A DNA stretch of 40,846 nucleotides from a virus. Below are positions 709 to 40,846 of this stretch, piece after piece. Position 1 is the first letter of the stretch; each line of letters begins with the position of its first letter. Below the pieces are notes generated by a model. The model did not search any database, had not been told where the DNA came from, and saw only the letters and a program-made list of their open reading frames with translations. The DNA lies in the IMG/VR virus record IMGVR_UViG_3300034096_000061, positions 1-40,846 of that record. One strand, given 5' to 3'. The translations under genes and the position numbers were made by a program.

Positions 709-1211
709 TCATCAGCCTTGTCTTCAGACATAGCGATAGCTTGTGCCATGTCTAAATCACCGCATGAGTATGCCTCAAACTTACGTGCAATGCGAATAAC
801 CATGTCTGCCAAATCATCCCAGTCTGCCTCATCAGTTGAATGCACACTGTCTGTTATCAACTTAACTGCATTGGTAACAGAGTTCTGACGCACAATTGCT
901 CTATCACCATGCAAGGCAGGGATAGGAAATACCTTTGGAGAGCCATAGGAGGGCTTAGAAGGGGCTGTAGAAGCTGTGCTAGGGGGTGGAGTACCACTAC
1001 CCTTAACCAAGAGCCGTACAGAGGCTAAATCCACGTTCTTACCATAGGTGTTTTCGGTATATTGAAAGTCTACCTCATCCCCAATGGAGAATGTAGGCTT
1101 CTTGAACCCATAACTAAAGCGTTCACCATTAGCTGTAACATTAAATGCTTTCTTAGGGCCAAACTTTGTATTAACTTCTTTCTCAGTGATGTTCTCAATA
1201 ACGTAACTCAT
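705..1211 (-). CDS. putative ssDNA-binding (OB-fold-like) protein
   Basis: A 168-aa protein starting at MSYVIENITEKEV. This start gives an ATGA overlap with the polymerase stop at 1208-1210; a longer frame exists upstream but would run far into the polymerase gene. The first ~75 residues look like a small beta-rich domain (KKAFNVTANGERFSYGFK, then a conserved-looking GDEVDFQYTE) followed by a Pro/Ser/Thr-rich linker (TPPPSTASTAPSKPS), and the protein ends in an acidic tail (MSEDKADE), the general design of phage SSBs. The position between DNA polymerase and a nuclease also fits an SSB (T7 gp2.5 analogue). No diagnostic motif proves it, so the role is inferred from architecture and neighbours. 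Confidence 0.5.
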   Translation of the reverse strand: MSYVIENITEKEVNTKFGPKKAFNVTANGERFSYGFKKPTFSIGDEVDFQYTENTYGKNVDLASVRLLVKGSGTPPPSTASTAPSKPSYGSPKVFPIPALHGDRAIVRQNSVTNAVKLITDSVHSTDEADWDDLADMVIRIARKFEAYSCGDLDMAQAIAMSEDKADE

Positions 1212-3118
1212 TTGATCTCCAATGCTGTTTTGTCTTGCCAAGTTGTACCAACGTCTACGCCAACCTTTAGTTGACATGGAAAGTCGATGTTAAAGTATTG
1301 TTTAAGATACAATGGTGCTTTCTCCAAGGTATCTTTAGCTATACAAGCTGCATCGTAACACACATCTTCTTCTGTGTCAAGTAGTACGCTGTCATGCACA
1401 GTCATTACTAATAATGCTTTGCGTGATAGGCCAGCTTCTTCTAGCTTACGTAACAAGATACCTACCATCATAGGCACTACGTCACCTGTTGCAAAGCCCT
1501 GAATAGGCCAGTTCTTAAGTTCTGTAGGACTAAATGTTAGCTCTCCTGCTTTGTAGTCACTAGCGTATTTCTTGAATACGTAATGTCTACCTGTTGGACT
1601 AGGGTGATAGTAGGTATATTGCGGCCCACTAACACCTTCTTCATAACTGATTACTGCTTTGTCATTTGCTTCCTTTACAATTGATTCATGGTATTGCTTC
1701 ACTCCTTTGTACCTAGTGTAGAACGTACTAATAAACTTCTTAGCTGTTGCTCTATCACAGCCACTCTGCGCCATAAGAGTTGTAACTCCACCTCCGTAAA
1801 CGAGCAAGAAGCTAAATCGTTTAAAGGGCTTTCGTTCAGCATCTGTAGGATAGCGTCCGTACATCCCGTTGTACAGTTCTCTGTGCATATCTCTGCCATT
1901 GTTAATATCCTCAATGAGTTGTTTATCGTCAGCTAGATATGCCAGAGCCACCATCTCTAGTTGTGAATAGTCAAGCTCTAATATCTTACCATTAGGAAAC
2001 CTACTGATGTATGCACGTTTAACGTCACCTGCATCAGTTTGATTCTGTAGGTTAGGATTAGTAGCAGACAATCGACCTGTCTTTGTAGAGCAATGATTAA
2101 GATTAGGATAGATATTATTATCAGGGAATCTTAAGTCATTAAGACCCTCATAATAGGTTTCTTTAATCTTCTTTGCATCACGCATTACTAATAACTGAGC
2201 AGCAAACAAATCACCTGATGATGACAGACCTTTAAGCACCGCATCATCAACGCTGTAATAGCCACTCTTACCTACCTCAATGCTAGGTATGTACTTGCCT
2301 TTAATAGTACGTACCTTGTCTACGTTCTTATACTTAGGCTTACCATTCTTGTACTCACCAACAAGTTCACGTTCTACATATTTCTCCTGCCCTCCAAAAA
2401 AGTATAACGACAATTGCTTAGGACTCATGTAGTCAACATCACCTACAAGAAATCTAATTGTCTCTGCTGTACCTCTGATTATGTCACCATACTTAACACA
2501 TGCCTTACTTACGTAGTCCCAATCTACATACATACCATTACGATTCATCTCAATGGTTGCACGTAATGCATCCATCTGCACCATCATCAAGGGTATCAAC
2601 CCTAGTTCTTCTGCTTCTAACCACTGCATCTTAAATATAGCTTCTGTGTTATGCACATCAATACGTAGATAGCTCTCAAGTTCTGTAATTGGTATGTGTT
2701 CTGTACGTACACCTGCTTTCCAATACTCCTTAATCTTGTCATCCTTCAGTGCATGTTCACCAATGTATTCAGCAGTTAACTCGTCAAGGCTTGCATATAA
2801 ATGTCTCTGTCCTGATAGAATGTATGCCGCAAGTTGTGTATCCCATATACGGGGCAGAATGTTACTAGTAAGACGATAGATATATAGTAAGTCAAATTTA
2901 ATGTTGTGACCAACTACTAATGATGCCTTATCTATTTCTTCTAATACAATATCTGCATCCACACCTGTACTACAGTAGTGGGTAGTTACACGTGGCGCAC
3001 CTACGCACATAAAACCAGCGGCAATAATTTTATTACCTATCCACATAGGGTTAGCCTTGTTGTTACCAACAGGACAATCCATTGTAGTTTCTAGATCAAG
3101 TACTAGCGTGTTGCCCAT
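1208..3118 (-). CDS. family A DNA polymerase with 3'-5' exonuclease
   Basis: A 636-aa replicative polymerase of the T7 gp5/PolA type. The N-terminal DEDD exonuclease is intact: D8 and E10 in LVLDLETT, D76 in VGHNIKFD, and a later LRIDVHNTE. Polymerase motif A is ILELDYSQLE (around residues 380-390), the O-helix region is ERKPFKRFSFLLVYG, and motif C is VMTVHDSVLLD (around residue 575) with the catalytic His-Asp. The length is close to T7 gp5 (704 aa), slightly shorter. It overlaps the helicase stop upstream by 16 bases and the SSB-like gene downstream by 4, within one leftward operon. Two palindrome-class repeats lie in or next to it (perfect copy at 2862). Confidence 0.97.
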   Translation of the reverse strand: MGNTLVLDLETTMDCPVGNNKANPMWIGNKIIAAGFMCVGAPRVTTHYCSTGVDADIVLEEIDKASLVVGHNIKFDLLYIYRLTSNILPRIWDTQLAAYILSGQRHLYASLDELTAEYIGEHALKDDKIKEYWKAGVRTEHIPITELESYLRIDVHNTEAIFKMQWLEAEELGLIPLMMVQMDALRATIEMNRNGMYVDWDYVSKACVKYGDIIRGTAETIRFLVGDVDYMSPKQLSLYFFGGQEKYVERELVGEYKNGKPKYKNVDKVRTIKGKYIPSIEVGKSGYYSVDDAVLKGLSSSGDLFAAQLLVMRDAKKIKETYYEGLNDLRFPDNNIYPNLNHCSTKTGRLSATNPNLQNQTDAGDVKRAYISRFPNGKILELDYSQLEMVALAYLADDKQLIEDINNGRDMHRELYNGMYGRYPTDAERKPFKRFSFLLVYGGGVTTLMAQSGCDRATAKKFISTFYTRYKGVKQYHESIVKEANDKAVISYEEGVSGPQYTYYHPSPTGRHYVFKKYASDYKAGELTFSPTELKNWPIQGFATGDVVPMMVGILLRKLEEAGLSRKALLVMTVHDSVLLDTEEDVCYDAACIAKDTLEKAPLYLKQYFNIDFPCQLKVGVDVGTTWQDKTALEIK

Positions 3119-4368
3119 TTTGATTTATACCTCGCCTTTGATGGTTCAATCTCTACTTCAAAGCACCCGTGTCTATGTGCTTCTAACGTGTCTTTACCTC
3201 CGAATAGTTTGTTCTTAGGCACGTGAATAAAACGTTGTAAATCCATTGCTGGTTCGTTACTCTTACCAATGGTGATGATTGCATCTGCTTCTCCAATTTT
3301 GTCAGTCTTACTACCACGTAGTTGATTCATTTGAATCCACTTCTCACCCTCACCTGTACCATCTACCTGCGATATGGCTATCACTGGACAATATTCTTTA
3401 GCCAAGTCTCTAGCCCACTCATACAGCTTACCAATGCGTAAGTCATCACGTGACTCGTTACTAAACCCATGCACCTTATCTAGTTGGTCAAAGATAATAA
3501 GACCGGGTTTAAACTCGGCAAACAACGTGCTAATTTTATTTACACTCTTGATGCCACTATCATCATCTAACACTAAGAATCGTTCACCACCGTTACTAGT
3601 AAACTCTGTCTCATACACACTAGGGTTAGCTAACAAGTCACCAGTAGTAACACCATTGAATGCCTGTATCACACGCATCATAACCTTAGTACTTGATTCC
3701 TCATTGTTAATCCATATGACATGCTCATCATCATGTAATTGACTCATCATATAGCTTGCTTCACTAGCTACGAATGTAGTCTTACCACTCTCAGGTCGTG
3801 CTGCTACAATGATGAAGTCACCCTTACGCAGTGGGCCTAGTGCTACGTTCAACTCTTTAAGTCTCCAGTCCAACCCTCCTGTAGCAACAATCTTAGATAG
3901 ATAAGATAGGCTAGGGCTAACGAATACATCTTCTTTTTCAACACTTGAGCCAATCTCTTTCTTGTAGTCGTTGAGCAATGGTTCAATGGATGTAAGCTCA
4001 CCACCTGACCCTGTGCCAATCTTCATACACACATCATAGATACGTGTGGCATAGTCAACCTCAATTAACTTAGCCAAAATATCCTTAACGATGGGCGGTT
4101 CATCTACCATACTTTCACCTAACCACATGAATGCTTGTTCATATAGCGCAGGGTCTTTTATCTTCTTACCACGTACAATGTTAAAGAATGTATGAAACTC
4201 ATCTACATCTACCTTAGTTCTAGTAGGGTAGTTGTCCCAGTATTCACCTAGTACATTAAATATATCTAATGTAATAGTTGATACATTGTGTTTCTTTACA
4301 TGGTCTTTAAATCTATTATACGTATCTTTTTCACTAACTACTGTTAGTAAATCTATATCGTATGACAT
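3103..4368 (-). CDS. DnaB-type replicative helicase
   Basis: A 421-aa RecA-fold ATPase. Walker A is RPESGKT (residues 191-197) and Walker B is GLIIFDQLD (D294), followed by an AISQVDGTGEGEKW segment and LRGSKTDKIGEADAIITIGKS, which resemble motifs H3/H4 of DnaB-family helicases (typically ISQLNR and LRGS). The N-terminal 150 residues are helical and lack a primase domain. In T7 helicase and primase are one polypeptide (gp4); here they are two genes, with primase directly upstream and a one-base TAATG overlap. It should unwind the fork for the adjacent polymerase. Perfect palindrome copy at 3593-3602. Confidence 0.93.
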   Translation of the reverse strand: MSYDIDLLTVVSEKDTYNRFKDHVKKHNVSTITLDIFNVLGEYWDNYPTRTKVDVDEFHTFFNIVRGKKIKDPALYEQAFMWLGESMVDEPPIVKDILAKLIEVDYATRIYDVCMKIGTGSGGELTSIEPLLNDYKKEIGSSVEKEDVFVSPSLSYLSKIVATGGLDWRLKELNVALGPLRKGDFIIVAARPESGKTTFVASEASYMMSQLHDDEHVIWINNEESSTKVMMRVIQAFNGVTTGDLLANPSVYETEFTSNGGERFLVLDDDSGIKSVNKISTLFAEFKPGLIIFDQLDKVHGFSNESRDDLRIGKLYEWARDLAKEYCPVIAISQVDGTGEGEKWIQMNQLRGSKTDKIGEADAIITIGKSNEPAMDLQRFIHVPKNKLFGGKDTLEAHRHGCFEVEIEPSKARYKSKWATR

Positions 4369-5195
4369 TACAGTTCCATTTCTTTTAAGTTTTCAATGTT
4401 AATCTCTTTTGCTTGTGCCATGTTCATACTAGTAACAAATTTGAATGTTGGACTAAGTTCTCTGAACAATGTCATAGCACCAGCATGACCCGCTTCATCA
4501 TCGTCTAACCATATCACAACTCTATCATAGTTGTCAAGCATTGTTTGTGTTATGTGTGATTTATTTAACTTAGTGCCTAACAAACACAATGATGCATACC
4601 CTGCTTCAAATAATTTATAACTACTGAGTAAATCTTCTACAATAACTAATGTTTTATTACCTGTATTAGTAAGCAACCATTGTATACTATTATCCTTGTT
4701 ATAGGTTAAATACTTTGGTTGTTTATCATACCTACGTACTTGATAACCAACACCCATACCACAATTCCATATAGGTAATATAATACCATCTCTATATTCT
4801 CTAATTCCAAAACTAGAACATTCTTCCTCTGTGAAACCATATTGAGCTAACCACAATTGTCCACGTATATCAAAGTCATTGTAATTTGTTTTCGCATTTT
4901 CATATATCTCAGAAAAATTTTTTTCATCAGCAGGTACAAGAATTGCTTTTGCACCCATTAACTTCATGCGTGATGTAGTTTCTCTGTGTCTATAATAACC
5001 ACTATCACCACAGTTAAAGCAGTGCCACAGATATGCATCGTCTACGTGCTTAACTCCGAATCGTTTACGTGTGTCCTCACCCATAGGACAAGTAGCATGA
5101 TTGTATTTAGCAGAATGTCCTTCTTCAAGTTCTTCATAATCAGGTGCATTACTAGTAAGCTCTTTCAATGCTGCATGTCCATACAGTGTTGTCAT
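4368..5195 (-). CDS. DNA primase, zinc ribbon plus toprim
   Basis: A 275-aa primase. The N-terminal zinc-binding region shows H33/C36 (HATC) and WHCFNC (H58, C59, C62). The toprim domain shows TLVIVEDLL (E187) and VVIWLDDDEAG (D231-D233), the acidic metal-binding residues. The size and the order zinc ribbon then toprim match the primase half of T7 gp4. It lies between a small Cys-containing gene (4-base overlap, 5192-5195) and the helicase (TAATG overlap). It should make RNA primers for lagging-strand synthesis. A palindrome copy (5149-5158) lies near the 5' end, coding LTSN. Confidence 0.93.
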   Translation of the reverse strand: MTTLYGHAALKELTSNAPDYEELEEGHSAKYNHATCPMGEDTRKRFGVKHVDDAYLWHCFNCGDSGYYRHRETTSRMKLMGAKAILVPADEKNFSEIYENAKTNYNDFDIRGQLWLAQYGFTEEECSSFGIREYRDGIILPIWNCGMGVGYQVRRYDKQPKYLTYNKDNSIQWLLTNTGNKTLVIVEDLLSSYKLFEAGYASLCLLGTKLNKSHITQTMLDNYDRVVIWLDDDEAGHAGAMTLFRELSPTFKFVTSMNMAQAKEINIENLKEMEL

Positions 5196-5374
5196 TCATT
5201 TCTCCCTTGGTTATCCCAAAATTCTGCACACTCAGGTTCTTCGTATGGTACTACAGTAAAGTATGCTTGTCTATACTCATTTGATTTTGCTGTGAATCGG
5301 TAACACTTATCCCGCATAGGACAAATTAAATTACGTTTCTCATCTGCACCTTTACACATTGTAATGTCAGCCAT
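5192..5374 (-). CDS. small Cys-containing protein of unknown function
   Basis: A 60-aa protein beginning MADITMCKG. I chose this start because GGAG lies 5 bases upstream; the frame is open back to an ATG at 5422, but the stretch between carries a stem-loop (see 5393-5414). It has four cysteines in a CKG...NLICPMRDKCYRFTAK...PECAEFW arrangement, suggesting a small metal-binding or disulfide-free knuckle. It lies between the CobS-like ATPase and the primase. I do not recognise a family with certainty; similar short Cys proteins are common beside phage replication genes. Confidence 0.7.
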   Translation of the reverse strand: MADITMCKGADEKRNLICPMRDKCYRFTAKSNEYRQAYFTVVPYEEPECAEFWDNQGRNE

Positions 5375-5392
5375 AACATCTCCATTAATTAA

Positions 5393-5414
5393 TGATGACA
5401 GACCTTTCGGTCTG
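5393..5414 (-). promoter_or_regulatory. GAAA-tetraloop hairpin plus GGTCTGTCATCA repeat in a gene leader
   Basis: On the minus strand CAGACC-GAAA-GGTCTG (5414-5399) forms a perfect 6-bp stem closed by a GNRA tetraloop. It is followed at once by TCATCA, completing a copy of the 12-mer GGTCTGTCATCA found five times in the window. It lies about 20-40 bases upstream of the start at 5374, just after the CobS-like stop. It may be a translational control or RNA-processing element; the function is inferred. Confidence 0.45.
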
Positions 5415-5421
5415 CCGTACA

Positions 5422-6471
5422 TCACTCACCGAATACTTTGACGTAGAATTCTTGCACAGATTTTACATCATCAGGGGTAAGCTTCTCAGTGAATGCAACC
5501 TGCAATGCATACTTAGCATCGTAGCGTTGGCACTTACGACCCCAATTAATCAGGGTACGTGGTGACATAGTAAGACCAATCTTACCTGTGTCATACGCAT
5601 TACGCACAAGACCTGCAACACGCACCATCTTAGTAGCAACATCTTTAGCAATGTTACTCTTACTAGTAATGATGGCTATCTCGTGCTTAGCATCAAGGTA
5701 TGCAAGACGGATAGTGTTAGTGAATCGGTCGATAGTTGCACTGTTCTGGATACCTACACCAGAGAACGCACCAGTAGTGTCACCTTGTCCAACAGTGTTA
5801 CCTGCAAACACCAGTCGGAAGTGTGCATCAGGTACGATGGTACGATCAGCAGACGTACCGGGCTTCTCTTTGAGATAGAGATAACCACCATCTTCTAACA
5901 AATTCTGCATACCCATAGCAATTTCAGGGGGCATCAGTTCCCACTCATCTACAAGGCACACAGCACCATACTTACATGCTTCAGTGATAGCACCATCTTT
6001 CCACTCAGTACCTACACCTACACTAGCAGTGAGCATACCGAACAATGACGCACTCTCAATGTCACCTGACATATTGATACGAATGAACGGGCGGTTAAGC
6101 TTAGCACACACATACTTAACTAGCGATGACTTACCGCTACCTGTAGGGCCTGTAAGCAAGCTCTTATCGTTGTCTTCGATACCTGCTACTAGTAATGCTG
6201 CTTCATTACGTTGCACCACATAGTCAGCGTCAGCAGTAGGTACAAGACGTGCTACCTCTGCATCTGCATTGTCAGCCAATACAGTGACAGCGAAGTCACC
6301 GAAGTTAGGTACATAGCCGAACACCTTACTGAATAGCTTCTGACCATCTGACAATGTTACTGTCTTCTCTACCTTGTCAGTAGGGGTTAGTGTAACCTCG
6401 GGTGTAGCAGGTACTTTACCCAAGTGTGCTGCGATAGCCTTAGCTACTTTGTCGTTGATTTCTACTGCCAT
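5422..6471 (-). CDS. CobS-like (MoxR-class) AAA+ ATPase
   Basis: A 349-aa AAA+ protein. Walker A is GPTGSGKS (residues 108-115), Walker B is CLVDEWE (D175, E176), and FRLVFAGNTVGQGDTTG (218-234) with the following ATIDRF closely follows the sensor region of the CobS subunit of aerobic cobaltochelatase. In CobS, ATP hydrolysis in complex with CobT drives cobalt insertion into the corrin ring by CobN. The gene directly follows the CobT-like VWA gene (2-base gap), the usual pairing of MoxR-class ATPase with a VWA partner. No CobN is seen, so in the phage it could either top up the host chelatase or act as a chaperone/remodelling pair. The fold is certain; the role is inferred. Confidence 0.88.
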   Translation of the reverse strand: MAVEINDKVAKAIAAHLGKVPATPEVTLTPTDKVEKTVTLSDGQKLFSKVFGYVPNFGDFAVTVLADNADAEVARLVPTADADYVVQRNEAALLVAGIEDNDKSLLTGPTGSGKSSLVKYVCAKLNRPFIRINMSGDIESASLFGMLTASVGVGTEWKDGAITEACKYGAVCLVDEWELMPPEIAMGMQNLLEDGGYLYLKEKPGTSADRTIVPDAHFRLVFAGNTVGQGDTTGAFSGVGIQNSATIDRFTNTIRLAYLDAKHEIAIITSKSNIAKDVATKMVRVAGLVRNAYDTGKIGLTMSPRTLINWGRKCQRYDAKYALQVAFTEKLTPDDVKSVQEFYVKVFGE

Positions 6472-6472
6472 G

Positions 6473-8194
6473 TTAAATACTCCTGTCTAAGATTGAAAGA
6501 ATTGTGCCTGAAAGATTAGCAATGTCTTTGACTACTTCATGCTTCTTATAAAACAAACGAACATTATCGTCACAAATACCAATACCATATATGTCTACCC
6601 CACTAGCTTCAATGTCTTTAACTACACGTGCTGTGTACGCTGTAATGTCACCATGTGAATCACGCCCTGCGGGACTACCATCGGACAATACTAGTAACAC
6701 CTTACGTTGTTCACGACGCATACCTAACACATACGACGCATACGCTAACGCATCACCATCTGTATTCTCCCACAAACAACCACTAGCTACAGCAAAACGC
6801 TTAACTAGATCGGGTGTAGATACACGTTCACCGAAGTCATTGAACACCCATATCAAAGGGTCGTCATTACCTTCTGAGTTGGTGAAACCTAGTACATTGA
6901 ATGCTATGTTAAGGGGCTTCAATGCTTCTGCCATAGCACCAGCACCAGCACAAGCCATCTCATACTTCTTACCTGACATACTACCACTACAGTCTACAAG
7001 CAATGTAACAGCCGTGTCAAGTGTGTCAGATACGATACGCTTACGGAACACACGGGTACTAGCTTCAGTGTTACCTGACAATAGTTTATGCAAACTACCT
7101 GTGTGTAACTTACCACGTTTCAATCCGTACTCGTACCTGTCCCTGCTACGTGTCTGCAATCGCATACGCAACTGATTAGCTAGTGGCTTAGCATTACTAG
7201 TAATGTATTTGGATACATTATCTGCTTTAAAATAACCCTCACTACGACCCTTAACTGCACGATGTAACTCAGGGAATCGCACGATAATGTACTCATCCTT
7301 ATGCGGTATGGTATATGCACCCTTGGTATCGGCTTTGTCTAGCTTAAGGTGAATACCTGTGCGACTAGGCTTATGCTCATGCCCAATGGCTTTGATAAGC
7401 TTCTCTACATCTACAAGTCTATCTTCCTCATCACCACCTGCACCTGCTTCCTCACCACCATCTGCTTCACCATCACCCTCACCCTTAGTTTTACCCTTAC
7501 CACCTTCACCCTTAGTTTTACCTTCCTCAGTGTAGTCTTCAGGTTTAGCGTCAAACAAGTCAATCAAGATACGCTTAGCTAGATCATACACACGTTCACC
7601 CACATCTAGCCCTGTGTCACAGCGCAATACTAGTAACTCATCGGTATATTTCTCAAGCTTGTGTAGCTTGTCAATACCATCATCATCTAGCATACTACCC
7701 ATAACATCACGTGTCTCAGCAGCATTACCTATCCATGTACGTAGTGCTGCATCCCACACAAACAGAGGTAACGTCAATCGTTGTTGCTCTGATAAGGCTG
7801 TATCTGTAGACTTCATACGCTTAACTATGTCATCTGCATACAACACCCAGTAGTTGTTACTAGTAATGGCATCACCTGCATACTGACTATCGTTGATAAA
7901 GTCAATACGATGGTCTTCGATAAGGTTATTAATCAAAGCCAATAACCCTGTAGGTCGGTGCTTGTTAAGCACCTCAAAGTCGCTGTAACTGATATGGCTT
8001 GTCTCATGCTTTACATAGTAACGCATACGTGTCAGCCACTCAGCCGGAGTAGTACTAGTAATGGATGGCAACCACATCATGCGCCCATCTGTACGTGGTG
8101 TACTTTCGGGTTTGTCCCACACAACTTTGATTCCACTATTCCTAGCACAACCTGCGACATAAGTCTCAAAGTTGACTACATCTAGATAATTCAT
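6473..8194 (-). CDS. CobT-like von Willebrand A domain protein
   Basis: A 573-aa protein whose C-terminal VWA domain has the MIDAS motif VDCSGSMSG (around residue 398-406), then ENTDGDALAYA, RREQRKVLLVLSDGSP and GIGICDDNVRLFYKKH. These blocks parallel the CobT cobaltochelatase subunit (NIDGEAL, RREQR, SDGAP, IGHDVTRYY). A low-complexity Gly/Glu/Lys linker near residues 221-262 separates the N- and C-domains, as in CobT. It starts one base after the previous stop (TAATG overlap) and is followed by its presumed ATPase partner. Three perfect palindromes (7194, 7857) and near-copies lie inside. The partner relation is strong; the biological role in infection is unknown. Confidence 0.87.
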   Translation of the reverse strand: MNYLDVVNFETYVAGCARNSGIKVVWDKPESTPRTDGRMMWLPSITSTTPAEWLTRMRYYVKHETSHISYSDFEVLNKHRPTGLLALINNLIEDHRIDFINDSQYAGDAITSNNYWVLYADDIVKRMKSTDTALSEQQRLTLPLFVWDAALRTWIGNAAETRDVMGSMLDDDGIDKLHKLEKYTDELLVLRCDTGLDVGERVYDLAKRILIDLFDAKPEDYTEEGKTKGEGGKGKTKGEGDGEADGGEEAGAGGDEEDRLVDVEKLIKAIGHEHKPSRTGIHLKLDKADTKGAYTIPHKDEYIIVRFPELHRAVKGRSEGYFKADNVSKYITSNAKPLANQLRMRLQTRSRDRYEYGLKRGKLHTGSLHKLLSGNTEASTRVFRKRIVSDTLDTAVTLLVDCSGSMSGKKYEMACAGAGAMAEALKPLNIAFNVLGFTNSEGNDDPLIWVFNDFGERVSTPDLVKRFAVASGCLWENTDGDALAYASYVLGMRREQRKVLLVLSDGSPAGRDSHGDITAYTARVVKDIEASGVDIYGIGICDDNVRLFYKKHEVVKDIANLSGTILSILDRSI

Positions 8195-28919: not shown

Positions 28920-31900
28920 ATGAATTTGTATTCTGAAGACAAAACAACTGAAGAAAAACCACCACTGTATACAGCAGAGGATACAGTTCCACAACAAATA
29001 GAAGGAATGGAAGATTATTCCATTCTTAAAGGTGTTTCAGTGTTAGCTACAGGAGACAACAACGTACCTGACAAAGTTAACTATGACCAACTGGTAGATG
29101 AAAGTTGGCGTAAAACTGTCGCTGAGAATAATGAGATAGATCGTATTACAGCAATTAATGCAGCTACTAGTGGTGAGGTAAGTGTTGTTCAAGAAGCACT
29201 AGATACACTTAAAGCACGTAACGCATTGTATGGAGCACAGTCTGCTAAAAATGTAGAAATTGTTCGTGCTAAGATGCGTGAACTTACTGAAACAGCTATT
29301 GAAACAACTGCAATTAAAAACCCTGCTGTTTTGTTTAATAATACAAAAGAAGAAATTAAAAACAGTGTAGACACACTTACTACTCAAGTTGCAGCACAAG
29401 CAGCATTAGAAAAAGAACTTAAAAATGGTGCTAGTATCTGGAACATTGTTAAAGGTATTGGTTACGAACTAACTCCATTTGCTGCTGAGCAAGGCCCAGC
29501 TATTGATAGAGTGGCTATTAAATATGGTGTTCCAGAAGACGCAATATCACGTACTACAGGTCGAAATAAAACAATTACATATTTACAAGCTGTGTTTCAA
29601 AGTTTACCTGAAGATCAAAAAACTGCATGGCTTACTGGATTACATCGTGACTTACAAGATGGTTTGTTAATTTCTAATTGGCAAGCCGCAGGTGTGGTAC
29701 AAGAGGTTGCAACAGGTGGAGAAAAAACATGGGATGGTTGGTCTGATTGGTTGGATAGAATTGGTGTTGTTGGTTCTATTTTAGGGTTAGTTGGTGCTGG
29801 ATATAAAAGTATAGGTTTGCTTAAAAATGCAGATAAGGTAATGAATGTTGAGCGTACAATGGCAGCAGGTGGTGCTAAAGCAAACATTGTAACTGCTGAA
29901 GCAACTAAAATATTAACTAGTGTAGCCAACAAACAACGCTTACAAGCTGCTGGTGTAGTTGCTGGAGAACTTACAGGTATTAATGCTGCACTTGATTTAA
30001 CTAAGCTTGTCAGTATGAGTGCTACCAAAGTATTGCCTGATTCCATTACAACCGCTGCACATGACTTACAGAAAGTAATTCGTGAGCCAGTACAAAAACT
30101 CATTGATGAGTTGCAGAATACTATTTCTGCTAAAGGTGTTCGTGCAGAAGAAGCTGCTATACAACTTGCAGAACTAAAGTCTATTTATTCTACTGCCAAC
30201 AATCCACGTATTCATTCAGTAGACCCATTTACTTTGTCTGCTGATGGTACACTCATCACTGGTAAGGTATATTTAAAGCCTGAGAATGCCACATCCTACC
30301 TTACTAAAGAAGCTGCTGAGACAGCTTTAAAAGTATTTGACCCAGATGGTAAGATGGGGATGAAGGTTATCCCCGATACCACCAACACAGGATTTATTGT
30401 AGAGCAAAGTGTTAAGGTTGATTTAGCTAAACGTAAGCAAGAGTTAGAAGCAGAGTTATTAACAGCAGCAGAGGAAGCTAATAAGACCCTTAAGGAAGTC
30501 ACCAAAGGCCCAGTAACCCCTGTTACTAGTAAGGTAGATAGGGACGTACCACCTAAGAGTTTAGTGTCTTCTAAGCCCCGTTATAAGACTGATGAACTTA
30601 TCTTTGAAGATGACATAGATAAGGCTGTTTATCAGATTGGTAGCAAGACTGCTACTAGTAAGTCAGACAAAGAAATTAAAGCATGGTTGGTTAAAGCTAC
30701 TGGTTGGGATGATAAACAAATATCTGAACATGCAGCTAAAATACGTGAGTACATTAAAGTTAATGGTGACTTAGCTCGTGGTGAAAATGATGAAATACTT
30801 GTAGCATCACAAGTGCCTAGAACTAGTGCTCGTGGAGGTGATGCTGGTGGTGTAGAAAGCAGTAGTAGTGTCGTAGGTGCAGTTGTTTCTAATCTAGCAA
30901 AAGATAGCACCATTAAAGTTATGGACAACATATCCATACAAGATGGCGCACAAACTGGATTCATTGCACAATTTCATGCTGCTTTAGGTAAAGCATTGGG
31001 TATGGAAAATAGAAAAATCATTGTTTTACAAATGAAAACTATGATTGCTAATCCTATGTATAAAGATTTAGTTGCATTGTTAAATACTAAATATACAAAA
31101 GCTGAAGCAGTACACTTCTCATATAAAAACAATACTAGTGTTATTGTAATGCGTAATAGTGTGGGTACAGTTGGTAAGTCTACGTACACACTAAAGTCAT
31201 ACATGGAAACATTTGCACATGAATATGCACATGCTTTTGAAGCACAGTTTTCAATAACGCATTCTCCTATTATGATTAGTAACTTCAATAAATGGTTACG
31301 TTCAAAAGGAATGAAGTGGGAAGATGGCGAAGGATTTAAACGGCACGTTAGCCAACAATTACCGCTGGAAGCATTATTAGAATATCGTGGTATTACTACA
31401 GCAGAAAGTTTATCCCAATTTATTGACGACTATTTTGCAGGTAATAAGGCAGCATATCTAGAAGTAGAAAAAGATATGCACAAATGGTTGTCTAGTTACA
31501 GTGAGTTTTTTGCTGAAAACTTTGCTAAGTGGGCATTTAGTGATGAAGTACCTACAACTATTTTAGGTGAGGCTTTTGCTAAACTTGTAAATGGTTTTAA
31601 AATTATTGCTGCGTATATTAACGATTTGCTTGTTAAAGCAGGGGCTGTACCTGTTATTGGTAGCGTAGATGTTAATACAGCAAAGATGCTTAACCAACAC
31701 GTTAAGAATATTAACAAACAAAGCATAGATGCATCAGCTTCTATTGGAGACAAAGCTAGTGCAGCTATATTAAGCACACGTACATTAGACACAATCCAAA
31801 GAGATTTACAAGCAGTTAACGATGAGATTAACGCTATTAATGCTGCTGAAACAGGACTTAAAACAGGTTGGTTATTGCAACAACCAGTTAATAGAAAGTT

Positions 31901-34859
31901 AGATTACTCTATTATTGGTAAATATTCAGATGATGATATTAATAGTGTAAGTAGATTTGCTTTAGGTGATTGGGCTTTGTCAACATCTAAAGAGTTATAT
32001 ACACAACGGGTAACAGGTATTAATCAACAAAGTAGATATGTCAAGTTGTTGACTAATTTTGTTCGTCCATCAGTTGAGAAACTGTCTCGCTCTGAGATGG
32101 TTATGTTGAATGATGCGTTAGTGTTAGGCGATAAAGAAGGTAAAGTATTTAACGATGTAGAACTTGCAGGTATGGGTGCTACTAAAAATTCTCGTATAGC
32201 CTATTACAAAGTAAGAGCATTGCGTGATGTAATGCATCAGATGCGAAATGATGTTGCATCTAAGAGTTTAACTCGTAAGGGTTATGTTAAACTATCTAGT
32301 GCAATGAAGCTAGATGATGGTGGCTTTGATATGTTTGTTAAAGAAGTAGCACCAACAATAGGTAAGACAGTGTATGTTGGTGATGAAGGTGTAGCTACCA
32401 GAGTTAGTGAGAAGTTTATTGAAGAAGCTAAATTAAAAGGTCTACGTTTCTTTGAGTCTACTGACCCTGTATTGATTGATGGTAAGAATCGTCAAACCTT
32501 TGCATTTAAAGATGGCAACTTTAACATTAACAAGATTGACCAAGCTATACCTTATCGTACTGGTGAATACAGACGTTTGTATAGTGATGAGTACTTTGTA
32601 AAAATTGTATCTGACTATGACATTGATGGTACAATGAAGACTGTTACACATACTCACCGCACTGCTGCAACAGCTAGTGATGCTAATGCCTACATTAAAT
32701 CTTTTAATGAAGCAGCTTTTTTGTTTAAGCAAGGTAAGTTAACTATTCAAGATGCAGCTAGATTGATGCAGCCTTATGGTTGGAAACCTGAAGAACTGTT
32801 AGAGATGTTTAACAGTGGTAAACTTGGTGACAATTATAAAGTTGAACTGCGTTACAACAGAACAGATGATGACTACATTGGTGAGTCTATTGGTTTGTCT
32901 AGTAACTTTAGCAGTAAACGTGGTGATAAAGTATTATCAGTACATGGTGAGAGTGCAGTCAATACAGTTAGTCCGTTGGACAGTATAGCTGCTGAGATTG
33001 GTAACACTGCGTATGTTGCTTCCATTACTGAGTGGAGAGAGTCACACATACAACGTTGGTTTAATACTTTTGTAGATGATTTGCCTGTTAATGTGCGTGA
33101 TAAATCACCTGAAGAAGCATTTAGATATATGTTGACTAACAAAGGTGCTTACATTGGTCAAAGTAAACGTTTAATATTTGCTCAGCGTGTACAAGACTAC
33201 ATTATGGCACAAATGAATATTCCTACTAAAGAAGAAAAAGACTTTGTAGGATTTATGCGTGTTGTAAGTGAATCCATTGAAGGTGCTACTAGTAACAACA
33301 AAGCAATGGCTAAAGTTGGTATGGCACTACGTGCTACTAAAGATTATCCACAATGGGCTAGAACAATTGCGTTCCACAGTTTCTTTGCTTTCAATCCTGT
33401 GCAGTTTTTTATGCAAGGTATGAATGCATTTAATGCTATAGCAATTTCGCCTATACACGGCATGTTTGCTGCTAAGTCTTCTAGCATGTATGCTATGGCA
33501 TTAATGAGTGACCAAGAGTCTATTTGGAGAACATTTGCTAACGTAAACAAAGTTAGTAACTTAGGTTTGGGAATGGATGCAGATGAGTTTGTAGAAGTAG
33601 TACGATCTATTAAACGTACTGGGTTACTAGATGGTATCAATAGTAGTAGTTTATATGGTGCTGAAACAGGTAAGTTTGGTTTGTTTAATGGTATTTCTCG
33701 TAAAGTAGGGAACGTAGCTGCTACTCCATTTAATTCTGGTGAAGCATTAAGTCGTATTGTAAGTTATGACATTGCACGTAGAGAGTTTAAAGCAGCTAAT
33801 CCCGGAGCAGCATGGTGGACAGATGATGCCTTAGTTGACATTATGAAACGTCAAGATGATTTGACACAGAACATGACTAAGGCTAACGTAGCAACATGGC
33901 AGCAAGGATGGAAGTCTATACCTGCACAGTTTGTACAGTATCAAGTTAAACTTATGATGAACGTTATTCAGAGTTTAATTGGTAATAGTCGTGTGTTTAC
34001 ACGTAAAGAAGCATTACAGTTACTAGTAATACATACGGCTGTTATGGGAACATCAGGTGCATTCTTATGGCCCTTCCGTGATTTAATTACAGAAGTAGTA
34101 CCTGAAGATGCCACTGAGATTGAACGTCTTACTGTACAGCAAGGTGTTGTATCAGGAATGATTGCAGTCATCACAGATGGTGAAGCTAAGCTTGCTTTAG
34201 GTAGTCGATTCAATACATTCCGTTACTATGAAGATTTAGTTAAAGGATTGTTAGACCCAGAGAAAAACTTTTTAGAAGTATTAGCTGGCCCTTCAGGTTT
34301 TGCTGGCTTACGTATTCTAGGTGGATTCGGTGATGCTATAGGTATTATGGTTAAAGCACCAATGACTATGAGTACGTTACAAGTTGCATTAACAGAGATA
34401 GGTAGAACTAGTTTCTCTGCAATTAACAACGTAACTAAAGCACGTATAGCTATGGCTAACTATAACCAAGTTATGAGTGGAACAGGTAGAGCAATGTATC
34501 GTGTTACAGATACAGAAGCTTGGCTCATTGGTTTTGGTATTCCTCCTGCTGCTCAAGAAGATTTGTCAATCATGTTTTCTAGTAGAAAAGCACATGCTGA
34601 CGAATTAAAATCTGCTGCTAAGGACGTAGGCAAACATGCGATGCTTGCCATTACTGCATTACGTAACAATGATTTAGAATCACACAAAGTACATGCTGCT
34701 GTAGTACAGACATACTTAAATGCTTACACAGGTGAGGATTTAAAACTCCTTATGAAAGAAGCATACAAGGTTGAAGCATTTACTCAATATGAAAAAATGG
34801 TAGTTGAACAAATGGTTAAACAGTTTCAAATTACTGACTTAACAACGCAAGGACAATAA
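28920..34859 (+). CDS. giant internal virion protein with embedded zinc-protease motif
   Basis: A 1979-aa protein, longest in the window, in the place of T7 gp15/gp16 ejection proteins. AAGGAC lies upstream of the ATG. Near residue 767 it has FAHEYAHAFEAQF, an HExxH zinc-metalloprotease motif, and downstream YSEFFAENFAKWAF, a plausible third ligand helix (E), so a gluzincin-like peptidase domain is likely. The other parts are helical with mixed charge. T7 gp16 carries the transglycosylase; here that enzyme is a separate gene (37586-38083). Palindromes at 30523 and 34020, plus near-copies at 30653 and 33287, lie inside. Role: DNA ejection; target of the protease unknown. Confidence 0.78.
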   Translation: MNLYSEDKTTEEKPPLYTAEDTVPQQIEGMEDYSILKGVSVLATGDNNVPDKVNYDQLVDESWRKTVAENNEIDRITAINAATSGEVSVVQEALDTLKARNALYGAQSAKNVEIVRAKMRELTETAIETTAIKNPAVLFNNTKEEIKNSVDTLTTQVAAQAALEKELKNGASIWNIVKGIGYELTPFAAEQGPAIDRVAIKYGVPEDAISRTTGRNKTITYLQAVFQSLPEDQKTAWLTGLHRDLQDGLLISNWQAAGVVQEVATGGEKTWDGWSDWLDRIGVVGSILGLVGAGYKSIGLLKNADKVMNVERTMAAGGAKANIVTAEATKILTSVANKQRLQAAGVVAGELTGINAALDLTKLVSMSATKVLPDSITTAAHDLQKVIREPVQKLIDELQNTISAKGVRAEEAAIQLAELKSIYSTANNPRIHSVDPFTLSADGTLITGKVYLKPENATSYLTKEAAETALKVFDPDGKMGMKVIPDTTNTGFIVEQSVKVDLAKRKQELEAELLTAAEEANKTLKEVTKGPVTPVTSKVDRDVPPKSLVSSKPRYKTDELIFEDDIDKAVYQIGSKTATSKSDKEIKAWLVKATGWDDKQISEHAAKIREYIKVNGDLARGENDEILVASQVPRTSARGGDAGGVESSSSVVGAVVSNLAKDSTIKVMDNISIQDGAQTGFIAQFHAALGKALGMENRKIIVLQMKTMIANPMYKDLVALLNTKYTKAEAVHFSYKNNTSVIVMRNSVGTVGKSTYTLKSYMETFAHEYAHAFEAQFSITHSPIMISNFNKWLRSKGMKWEDGEGFKRHVSQQLPLEALLEYRGITTAESLSQFIDDYFAGNKAAYLEVEKDMHKWLSSYSEFFAENFAKWAFSDEVPTTILGEAFAKLVNGFKIIAAYINDLLVKAGAVPVIGSVDVNTAKMLNQHVKNINKQSIDASASIGDKASAAILSTRTLDTIQRDLQAVNDEINAINAAETGLKTGWLLQQPVNRKLDYSIIGKYSDDDINSVSRFALGDWALSTSKELYTQRVTGINQQSRYVKLLTNFVRPSVEKLSRSEMVMLNDALVLGDKEGKVFNDVELAGMGATKNSRIAYYKVRALRDVMHQMRNDVASKSLTRKGYVKLSSAMKLDDGGFDMFVKEVAPTIGKTVYVGDEGVATRVSEKFIEEAKLKGLRFFESTDPVLIDGKNRQTFAFKDGNFNINKIDQAIPYRTGEYRRLYSDEYFVKIVSDYDIDGTMKTVTHTHRTAATASDANAYIKSFNEAAFLFKQGKLTIQDAARLMQPYGWKPEELLEMFNSGKLGDNYKVELRYNRTDDDYIGESIGLSSNFSSKRGDKVLSVHGESAVNTVSPLDSIAAEIGNTAYVASITEWRESHIQRWFNTFVDDLPVNVRDKSPEEAFRYMLTNKGAYIGQSKRLIFAQRVQDYIMAQMNIPTKEEKDFVGFMRVVSESIEGATSNNKAMAKVGMALRATKDYPQWARTIAFHSFFAFNPVQFFMQGMNAFNAIAISPIHGMFAAKSSSMYAMALMSDQESIWRTFANVNKVSNLGLGMDADEFVEVVRSIKRTGLLDGINSSSLYGAETGKFGLFNGISRKVGNVAATPFNSGEALSRIVSYDIARREFKAANPGAAWWTDDALVDIMKRQDDLTQNMTKANVATWQQGWKSIPAQFVQYQVKLMMNVIQSLIGNSRVFTRKEALQLLVIHTAVMGTSGAFLWPFRDLITEVVPEDATEIERLTVQQGVVSGMIAVITDGEAKLALGSRFNTFRYYEDLVKGLLDPEKNFLEVLAGPSGFAGLRILGGFGDAIGIMVKAPMTMSTLQVALTEIGRTSFSAINNVTKARIAMANYNQVMSGTGRAMYRVTDTEAWLIGFGIPPAAQEDLSIMFSSRKAHADELKSAAKDVGKHAMLAITALRNNDLESHKVHAAVVQTYLNAYTGEDLKLLMKEAYKVEAFTQYEKMVVEQMVKQFQITDLTTQGQ

Positions 34860-38712: not shown

Positions 38713-38898
38713 TTATTTTCCTTCCGCAATTCTAAAATCATTTCTATTACCTACAAAGGTATTGCACACTTGATGCACTTTACCATCTTTGGTTTTAAAA
38801 GTCAATACAACTTCTAATGATTTGTCTACTTCATACAACCGAACACCTAAGTGGTGTCGTAGTGTATGTAACATTTGGTAGCTTTCACTGTTGTTCAT
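38713..38898 (-). CDS. 61-aa hypothetical protein
   Basis: MNNSESYQMLHTLRHHLGVR ... DFRIAEGK with a 14-base overlap with the sigma-like gene. Small alpha/beta domain with VRLYEVDKSLEVVLTFKTKDGKVHQV. Function unknown; co-expressed with the sigma factor. Confidence 0.7.
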   Translation of the reverse strand: MNNSESYQMLHTLRHHLGVRLYEVDKSLEVVLTFKTKDGKVHQVCNTFVGNRNDFRIAEGK

Positions 38899-39400
38899 TC
38901 ATTTTCCTCCTGATTGTTCTCTTAGCCTTCCATACAAGCTTCTTTGCATACTTAGGCGAACAACTTAATATAGCAGATATTTCTACGTAAGACAACCCAT
39001 CGTATTCTTTTAACAACAATGCTCTACGTTGCTTGTTAGGCAATGTGTCACAGATAACAGTTACACCCTCTATTTTCTGCTTAACTGCTAACAAGGATTC
39101 AGGGGTGACTACATCTACCATCTCAACGTCTGTTTTAAGGCTGTTAAACGGCTGTCTGAGGCACTTTCTATTAGCGATGGTACAGAGCCATGTGTATAGC
39201 TGACTATCGCCTTTAAACGCCCCTAATCCCTTGTATGCATCCAGCAATACATCCTGAGTTATTTCTTCTGCTTGTGCGTCATCATCCACCCTCCTACGTA
39301 TGAATCTGTATATTCGTTGTCTATACATTGACACTAGGGTGGTGTAAGCCTTCTCACTGCCCCCTAATGCCTCTGCGATAAGCTCTTTATCAGATTTCAC
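38885..39400 (-). CDS. ECF-type sigma factor (sigma-70 family, regions 2 and 4)
   Basis: A 171-aa protein with the two-domain ECF layout. Region 2 (~residues 17-82): AYTTLVSMYRQRIYRFIRRRVDDDAQAEEITQDVLLDAYKGLGAFKGDSQLYTWLCTIANRKC, matching the typical ECF pattern AEELTQDVFL.a......F.g.s...TWL..IArn. Region 4 (118-165): LPNKQRRALLLKEYDGLSYVEISAILSCSPKYAKKLVWKAKRTIRRK, with a helix-turn-helix. No region 1 or 3. It overlaps the RNR stop by 11 bases. It should bind host RNA polymerase and direct it to phage promoters. No anti-sigma gene is seen. Confidence 0.88.
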   Translation of the reverse strand: MKSDKELIAEALGGSEKAYTTLVSMYRQRIYRFIRRRVDDDAQAEEITQDVLLDAYKGLGAFKGDSQLYTWLCTIANRKCLRQPFNSLKTDVEMVDVVTPESLLAVKQKIEGVTVICDTLPNKQRRALLLKEYDGLSYVEISAILSCSPKYAKKLVWKAKRTIRRKMNEQQ

Positions 39401-40846
39401 ATACCCCCGCTACGCAAGCAAGCTGTTGTGCCCCCTCAACGTTATCGGTAGTTTCAATGAATGCATCCCAATCAATTGTCTTAGGCATCTTATCTTTCAT
39501 ATTTTCATATTCAAGATGTGAGATTTCTTCATATGGTGCTTGTTTGTATGTACCACCATCCCAAGGGAGGAATGAAATTCCACTAATCTCATCAAAGTGT
39601 TCCCATACCCATGCACCTACTGAGGGCCAATCTTCTTCTTTGACATACACAGTTACAGATGGCTTATGTTCACACCAGTGACGTTGATAAGCAAGCCACA
39701 ACTTCAGGTGAGTAAAGCTATCCAACTCATCACGTGTAATACAACCATCAGGTGCTTTCATAGGGAAGCTAAAGATAGTTGTATCCAAAGGTTTCATTAC
39801 ATCAGCTTCCGCAGGTATTCCTTGGTTTCTAAGAAACTGTGTAATAGGGTCTTTGTTGTCATTGCGAACACGACGGATATAGTACTGACTATGACGAGCG
39901 TGAATGCCTGAAGCACTATCCACAAGCTGAGAAACAGTACCGGAAGGCTTGACACAAGTGATTGCAGCAGACTGAGGTATTCCGAGAACATCAGCAAATT
40001 CCTTATTACTAGTAACAGCCACACTACGCAGCATCTCTAACCTTGATGACAGACCCACATCATTCACATTATTCAGCACAGGGCAGTCGAGGATTCCTGT
40101 GATGGAGACTCCGAGAAGCCGTTCAGCCTCAGTATTGTTCTGCCAGATTTTTCTAAGATATGGAAATTCTGTGAGAGTTGATTGGAAAGTTCCCAAGATA
40201 GTGGCAAGTCGCACTTTTCGGCTAAGAGTATCTCCGTTATCTGTGTCTCTGGCGACAACTTCTGTAAGGTTACAAAATTGATATGGACGGAGAATGATTT
40301 CAGAACATGGGTTAGTTCCAAAGTCATAGTTACTATCTCGTCTTCCATTCTTTTCAACCGTATACTTAGCAGCTTCCCTTGAAAAGATTCCTCGTTCTCC
40401 ACTATGAGACTGATACAACGCCAACCATTCTGCCATAAATTCCCCAACTGTGGGCTTAACATTATAAGATGCACTGTTGTTTGCCAAAGCTCGTTGTCCC
40501 TCTCGCTCCCACCAATTGCCGCTTTTCGCATGACGCATCCTATCGTCAGACAAGTCAGATAAACTAATCATAGCAGACCTACGCACACCACCTACTACAA
40601 CTACTTCACCAATCTTACACATAATGTCGTGGCACTCTAAGCTAGTCAGCTTACGTCCAGCAGCACCTTGAAACTTACTAGTAACAAACTTAAACAAGTC
40701 TACCAATGGCTCAGGGCCTGATGCTCTACCACCAAATGTTTTGAGTCGAGTACCAGCAGGTCGTACTTTACTTACGTCCCATTTTGGGATTTCACCACTG
40801 TATAACAATGCAAGAATTTGTCGTAAAGCTTTTGCCCAACCTGCTT
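39390..40846 (-). CDS. adenosylcobalamin-dependent (class II) ribonucleotide reductase, 5' end outside window
   Basis: About 485 C-terminal residues; the frame is open to the window edge (upstream reading AGWAKALRQILALLYSGEIPKWD), so the N-terminal part is missing. NPCSEIILRPYQFCNL holds the radical-site Cys and Glu with a second Cys 11 residues later, the spacing of C408/C419 in L. leichmannii ribonucleoside-triphosphate reductase. KPSGTVSQLVDSASGIHARHSQYY is the nucleotide/phosphate-binding loop region. A C-terminal Cys pair (ACVAGVCEI) would shuttle reducing equivalents. It makes deoxynucleotides for phage DNA and requires B12, which links it to the CobS/CobT pair. Palindromes at 40006 and 40675 are inside. 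Confidence 0.9.
   Translation of the reverse strand, partial: AGWAKALRQILALLYSGEIPKWDVSKVRPAGTRLKTFGGRASGPEPLVDLFKFVTSKFQGAAGRKLTSLECHDIMCKIGEVVVVGGVRRSAMISLSDLSDDRMRHAKSGNWWEREGQRALANNSASYNVKPTVGEFMAEWLALYQSHSGERGIFSREAAKYTVEKNGRRDSNYDFGTNPCSEIILRPYQFCNLTEVVARDTDNGDTLSRKVRLATILGTFQSTLTEFPYLRKIWQNNTEAERLLGVSITGILDCPVLNNVNDVGLSSRLEMLRSVAVTSNKEFADVLGIPQSAAITCVKPSGTVSQLVDSASGIHARHSQYYIRRVRNDNKDPITQFLRNQGIPAEADVMKPLDTTIFSFPMKAPDGCITRDELDSFTHLKLWLAYQRHWCEHKPSVTVYVKEEDWPSVGAWVWEHFDEISGISFLPWDGGTYKQAPYEEISHLEYENMKDKMPKTIDWDAFIETTDNVEGAQQLACVAGVCEI

Follow-up and report, generated by a model that had tools for sequence, protein, structure and literature searches.

The adjacent CobS- and CobT-like genes of the viral DNA analysed here (a linear contig of 40,846 bases, hereafter the window) probably encode a MoxR-type AAA+ motor and a VWA adaptor with an N-terminal gluzincin metalloprotease domain, together a core part of the replication module, rather than a cobaltochelatase supplying the phage ribonucleotide reductase (RNR). 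Phage cobS and cobT are routinely taken as auxiliary metabolic genes tying phages to B12 (e.g. PMC8651126, PMC11288001, PMC11705849); those of phage CRP-810, for instance, are listed as such in PMC11288001, where the function of phage cobS is also called uncertain. Because the pair of the window is probably a motor-plus-protease machine, it ought not to be listed among genes that supply the phage reductase with B12.

The portal protein of the window is 47-51% identical to those of cobaviruses, SIO1 and the Vibrio phage ICP2, and portal and gene order, both like those of SIO1, ICBM and ICP2, place the phage with the Zobellviridae (Cobavirinae-like). A megablast search of the phage collection returned no near relative, and the window carries no tRNA from which a host could be inferred. 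The relative G001, 45 kb long and mostly 93-99% identical to the window at the DNA level, contains a 3.9-kb stretch that bridges the right end of the window to its left end; the window is a permuted, incomplete genome (a broken contig) with about 3.9 kb missing between its ends. The G001 sequence presents one unbroken minus-strand array, CobT-CobS-primase-helicase-polymerase-exonuclease-ThyX-complete RNR-sigma factor, and the class II RNR is therefore not in a separate operon, as the preliminary description had it.

The window itself encodes CobT at 6473-8194 (minus strand, 573 aa) and CobS at 5422-6471 (minus strand, 349 aa), with a gap of one base between the genes. They are followed by a small Cys-containing ORF that has 4 bases in common with the end of cobS (5192-5425, minus strand; phrog_20586, unknown function, E 1.1e-6), and then, downstream in the same array, by genes for a DNA primase (4368-5195, minus strand; phrog_47 DNA primase, E 4.6e-32), a DnaB-like replicative helicase (3103-4368, minus strand; DnaB_C E 1.1e-16, phrog_19 E 2e-47) and a family A DNA polymerase (1208-3118, minus strand; DNA_pol_A E 7.2e-53). 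The order CobT-CobS-primase-helicase-polymerase is common to the window and ICP2.

The adjacency of CobS- and CobT-like genes that had been described at the outset is borne out by this arrangement and by domain and profile matches. CobT matches Pfam CobT_C (E 1.6e-26), and a profile of phage CobT aligns over the full length of the solved chelatase CobT 9uka_G (E 7e-68); the score against TIGR01651 is 80.8 bits, which does not reach the curated cut-off of 759.05. CobS matches AAA_5 (E 3e-19) and CbbQ_C (E 1.7e-9), its top PDB match is cobaltochelatase CobS 9ujv (E 1e-39), and its 141 bits against NCBIfam TIGR01650 (E 3.9e-41) stay under the curated cut-off of 558.55. Sequence comparison confirms the two as homologues of chelatase subunits, with a similarity far above chance and far below the cut-offs for true subunits.

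CobS has the features of a MoxR-clade AAA+ ATPase, namely Walker A and B motifs, a sensor and arginines. The residues concerned, G108..GK114 (Walker A), D175 E176 (Walker B), N225, R249 and R305, do not vary among 17 divergent phage CobS. One CobS ORF (L057:1034-2899) is 621 aa long, far above the length of its relatives, and is possibly fused to the next gene. According to CobT_C, the 9uka_G profile and AF2 models, CobT consists of an N-terminal putative gluzincin domain, a low-complexity linker and a C-terminal VWA domain. The latter (about residues 396-572; 6479-7009, minus strand) has a MIDAS, D401-x-S403-x-S405 with S504-D505-G506, invariant across CobT alignment A1. Its model matches the folds of the NorD VWA (Z 20.8) and the midasin MIDAS (Z 19.6), and its sequence similarity to NorD is weak (E about 2e-4). 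CobT thereby has both the VWA fold with MIDAS and the neighbouring AAA+ gene expected of a VWA co-chaperone of MoxR. The phage pair resembles NorQ-NorD and midasin in its VWA fold (Z about 20) and MoxR-clade AAA+ partner; neither of these systems is known to have an N-terminal HExxH domain.

The N-terminal domain of CobT (residues 1-222; 7529-8194, minus strand) separates the phage protein from the chelatase subunit. A HETSH motif (residues 63-67; 7994-8008, minus strand) provides a putative zinc site and catalytic Glu, and a distal motif, N90-x-x-E93-D94 (NLIED, residues 90-94; 7913-7927, minus strand), conserved among viral CobT, includes E93 as putative third zinc ligand. H63, E64, H67, N90, E93 and D94 are kept in all 29 close family members. 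With representatives chosen at 95%, 70% and 50% identity, HExxH is found in 64 of 65, 42 of 43 and 16 of 17 viral CobTs, respectively, versus none of the cellular chelatase CobTs at the same levels (0/91, 0/21 and 0/3). The distal N, E and D occur in 40, 39 and 42 of 43 viral representatives, respectively; chelatase CobT retains the E and mostly has Q where viral CobT has D. The x positions of HExxH vary in viral CobT (TS, VA, AG, CY, LG, PL, CF), whereas the two H and the E stay constant, as would be expected of a catalytic motif. At this position the solved chelatase CobT 9uka_G reads DSMALRQ and the window K-HETSH; the chelatase pattern D-[SAQT]-x-A-[LM], present in the 21 chelatase CobT representatives (70% identity), does not match the window CobT. 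Given this and the full-length alignment to 9uka_G, chelatase CobT belongs to one family with the phage protein but lacks the metal site. One apparent HExxH in a rhizobial CobT was a wrong-frame translation and was dropped, and three HExxH counted among chelatase CobTs lay outside start-to-stop proteins, leaving none in the final count.

The motif is widely distributed among phages. It is present in CobT of ICP2, SSU5, RHEph10, V1VFA-S, CRP-810 and T5S1, as well as in that of PhiR41_1, a phage of E. coli K-12; the 'peptidase' genes that precede cobS in P-HM2 and HTVC008M carry it too. It was lost, with VWA and CobS kept, at L292:3882-5804, L282, L071 and L073, from Acinetobacter phage-plasmids and the phages nickie and ANB28, whose CobT are, judging by the motif, putative natural pseudo-protease variants. 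Proteolysis is consequently not always needed, and in these lineages the machine can function, or be retained, without HExxH. A cell-encoded CobT-like protein with HEAAH was also seen in a bacterial genome (G309, L202:3031-4686), flanked upstream by a CobS-like gene and downstream by a primase-like ORF with a zinc finger; this locus is perhaps a mobile element.

Since a Foldseek search with full-length CobT showed the VWA part only, the N-terminal domain was modelled alone (AF2, 43 viral sequences, pLDDT 96.5, pTM 0.91). In the model H63, E64 and H67 lie in one helix (residues 51-70) and E93 in another (83-104), the layout of a gluzincin, whose HExxH is followed by a Glu in a second helix further along the chain. 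Fold matches in the PDB were weak, the best being jannalysin (Z 4.6), then BlaR1 protease and selecase. Gluzincins, among them M1 aminopeptidases, PprI and collagenase G, made up about half of the 50 best of these weak matches, which supports a gluzincin domain without proving it. Foldseek found no significant match to the domain in the PDB (E 0.44) and matched viral CobT/VWFA proteins in BFVD. As the fold matches are weak, the assignment to the zincin fold relies mainly on motif and topology. One BFVD match, R4THQ9, is a VWFA protein of Haloarcula californiae tailed virus 2, and by this fold similarity the N-terminal domain of CobT may reach archaeal viruses.

We propose that CobS would form an ATPase ring and that the VWA/MIDAS of CobT would hold a substrate protein via its metal site, in the manner of NorD and midasin. 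Remodelling powered by ATP would hand the substrate to the HExxH domain of CobT, which would cleave it, and CobST would act early, together with the replication module. Zinc binding, proteolysis and a CobST complex are predicted by this scheme, and we infer that the substrate would be among the early or replication proteins of the phage or host.

The presumed tie to replication is one of guilt by position. Of 43 viral representatives, 40 have a gene for primase, helicase or polymerase A, or several of these, after CobT and CobS (in one case CobS precedes CobT); the exceptions are L037, which is incomplete, and L282 and L283, which have PolIII-alpha instead. Phage-plasmids mostly show the order ligase-CobT-CobS-polymerase III alpha, and in cyanophages and pelagiphages the pair lies between gp46/47 and the clamp genes gp45/44, the gene at the CobT position being annotated 'peptidase'. 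The window CobT falls in an all-viral clade of 42 sequences that includes ICP2 (SH-aLRT 100), chelatase CobTs form one separate clade, and CobS sequences group alike, though less well supported; the window CobST does not look like a recent acquisition from a host. These relatives were found with an alignment as query; single-query viral scans with the CobT of CRP-810 or ICP2 returned none.

A MoxR/VWA chaperone for replication or assembly had been put forward as the second option in the preliminary description. This option fits much better than the first, discussed below, and position favours its replication part, but it did not include a metalloprotease signature in CobT. A chaperone that does not cleave proteins, such as a factor assembling the replisome or loading the helicase, with HExxH as a structural or non-catalytic metal site, seems unlikely to us. 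Most MoxR/VWA systems that have been studied well resemble chaperones (PMC7159879), a constant place before primase and DnaB-like helicase would suit such a factor, and the lineages without HExxH keep both the pair and its place. However, H, E, H and the distal E/D are strictly conserved in 16 of the 17 clusters formed at 50% identity while the x positions are free to vary, as catalysis predicts.

The first option was that CobST boosts cobalt insertion by the host for the phage's own B12-dependent reductase: viral CobST would join host CobN and so raise cobalamin for the class II RNR. The reductase is indeed there. An adenosylcobalamin-dependent class II RNR of the RTPR type is encoded at 39390-40846 (minus strand; TIGR02505 E 3e-68 over the part present, phrog_367 E 2.7e-133); the reading frame continues past the right end of the window, so that its N-terminal third is missing, and the complete ORF in G001 has 630 aa. 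The homology to CobS and CobT is real, cobaviruses infect Rhodobacteraceae, in which B12 synthesis is common (PMC6775973), and 16 of the 18 records of the window's clade, several of them fragments, carry a class II RNR, as a B12 link would also predict, and none of the 18 has NrdB; the RNR also shares one gene array with the pair. Outside this clade, however, the association breaks in both directions. CobS/CobT are found with class I RNR in SSU5, nickie, RHEph10, V1VFA-S and ANB28, as are cobS and the upstream 'peptidase' in P-HM2 and HTVC008M, and the pair occurs without any RNR in CRP-810 and in ICP2, which belongs to the same family as the window phage. Conversely, the close relatives ICBM2, CRP-4 and HMO-2011 have a class II RNR (66-68% identity) and no CobS. 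Consequently, co-occurrence of the pair with RNR in the window's clade can be explained by descent as well as by function. The RNR of T5S1, without NrdB, matches a class II profile weakly. Listeria P70 was dropped as an example of CobST, its CobS match being weak (tblastn E 5e-6) and the neighbouring gene not CobT-like.

The distribution among hosts also speaks against a supply of cobalamin. As stated at the outset, the phage has no CobN: PF02514 is absent from the window and 22 relatives (23 phage records, phage genes only; host CobN may exist). No CobN signal was obtained with two models in the Escherichia coli control genome, yet the K-12 phage PhiR41_1 carries the CobT/CobS pair, beside DNA polymerase III alpha. 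CobT-like genes also occur in 957 records of plasmids, the majority of them from Klebsiella, Escherichia and Acinetobacter. The aerobic B12 pathway is not known from Vibrio cholerae, Klebsiella or Acinetobacter. The phage pair shares with cobaltochelatase CobN-CobS-CobT (9ujv, 9uka) the homology of CobS and full-length CobT, the acidic linker and the VWA/MIDAS. It differs in having no CobN, in scores far under the family cut-offs, in forming a separate clade and in HExxH standing where the chelatase signature D-[SAQT]-x-A-[LM] should be. Both findings that the preliminary description had named as refuting this option, a class I RNR in phages with cobS/cobT and a host without cobN, are seen among the relatives. 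We therefore regard the B12 explanation as very improbable.

A MoxR ATPase with a vWA protein carrying an N-terminal metallopeptidase has been described in jumbo phages of group 2.2, with a suggested role in virion assembly (Iyer et al. 2021, PMC7824862); CobS and chelatase are not mentioned in that text. Compared by description, the two systems are alike in adjacent phage genes and in the metallopeptidase at the N-terminus of the vWA protein, and differ in that ours belongs to 40-50 kb podoviruses and phage-plasmids, is annotated as cobaltochelatase and has a constant place in the replication module. There is little chance that the window pair is such a virion-assembly chaperone-protease: it has the same domain architecture, and tail assembly of Acidianus two-tailed virus is a precedent cited in PMC7824862, but the pair lies among replication genes in window-type phages, SSU5/RHEph10-type phage-plasmids and T4-like marine phages, and structural-protein queries had no match near it in the viral representatives (flanks often only 5 kb).

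Viral CobST of Druskaviridae, Saparoviridae and cyanophages has the same two-gene cobST cluster, and the cyanophage 'peptidase' with cobS fits it as well (PMC8651126). That study differs from the present one in its reading, a CobN-dependent chelatase; it proposed that CobST of archaeal tailed viruses hijacks host CobN and called the 'peptidase' label of cyanophage cobT a mistake. The HExxH motif points against this verdict: by this evidence the label is no mistake. No literature linking phage CobT with a metallopeptidase was found, in a search mostly outside subscription journals. Relative to the second option of the preliminary description, the probable gluzincin site of CobT and the probable membership of the pair in the replication module are additions.

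A broader proposal, towards which we lean rather less than against, is that such pairs are a widespread, virus-specific AAA+/VWA/gluzincin protease, fixed in replication modules across unrelated tailed phages and phage-plasmids and misread as a B12 pair, and that chelatase CobT arose from a protease of this kind whose active site was lost. If the phage pair is a metalloprotease linked to replication, B12 inferences from phage cobS/cobT would fall and hundreds of phage and phage-plasmid annotations would change. The pair would then possibly be an essential phage machine, testable in E. coli K-12, and the N-terminal domain of chelatase CobT would have a proposed origin.

Two further genes of the window deserve mention. 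A very large internal virion protein of 1979 aa (phrog_12003) is encoded on the plus strand at 28920-34859. An ECF-like sigma-70 factor gene (38885-39400, minus strand) lies directly downstream of the RNR gene, and a sigma factor gene directly follows cobS in RHEph10, V1VFA-S and Acinetobacter phage-plasmids.
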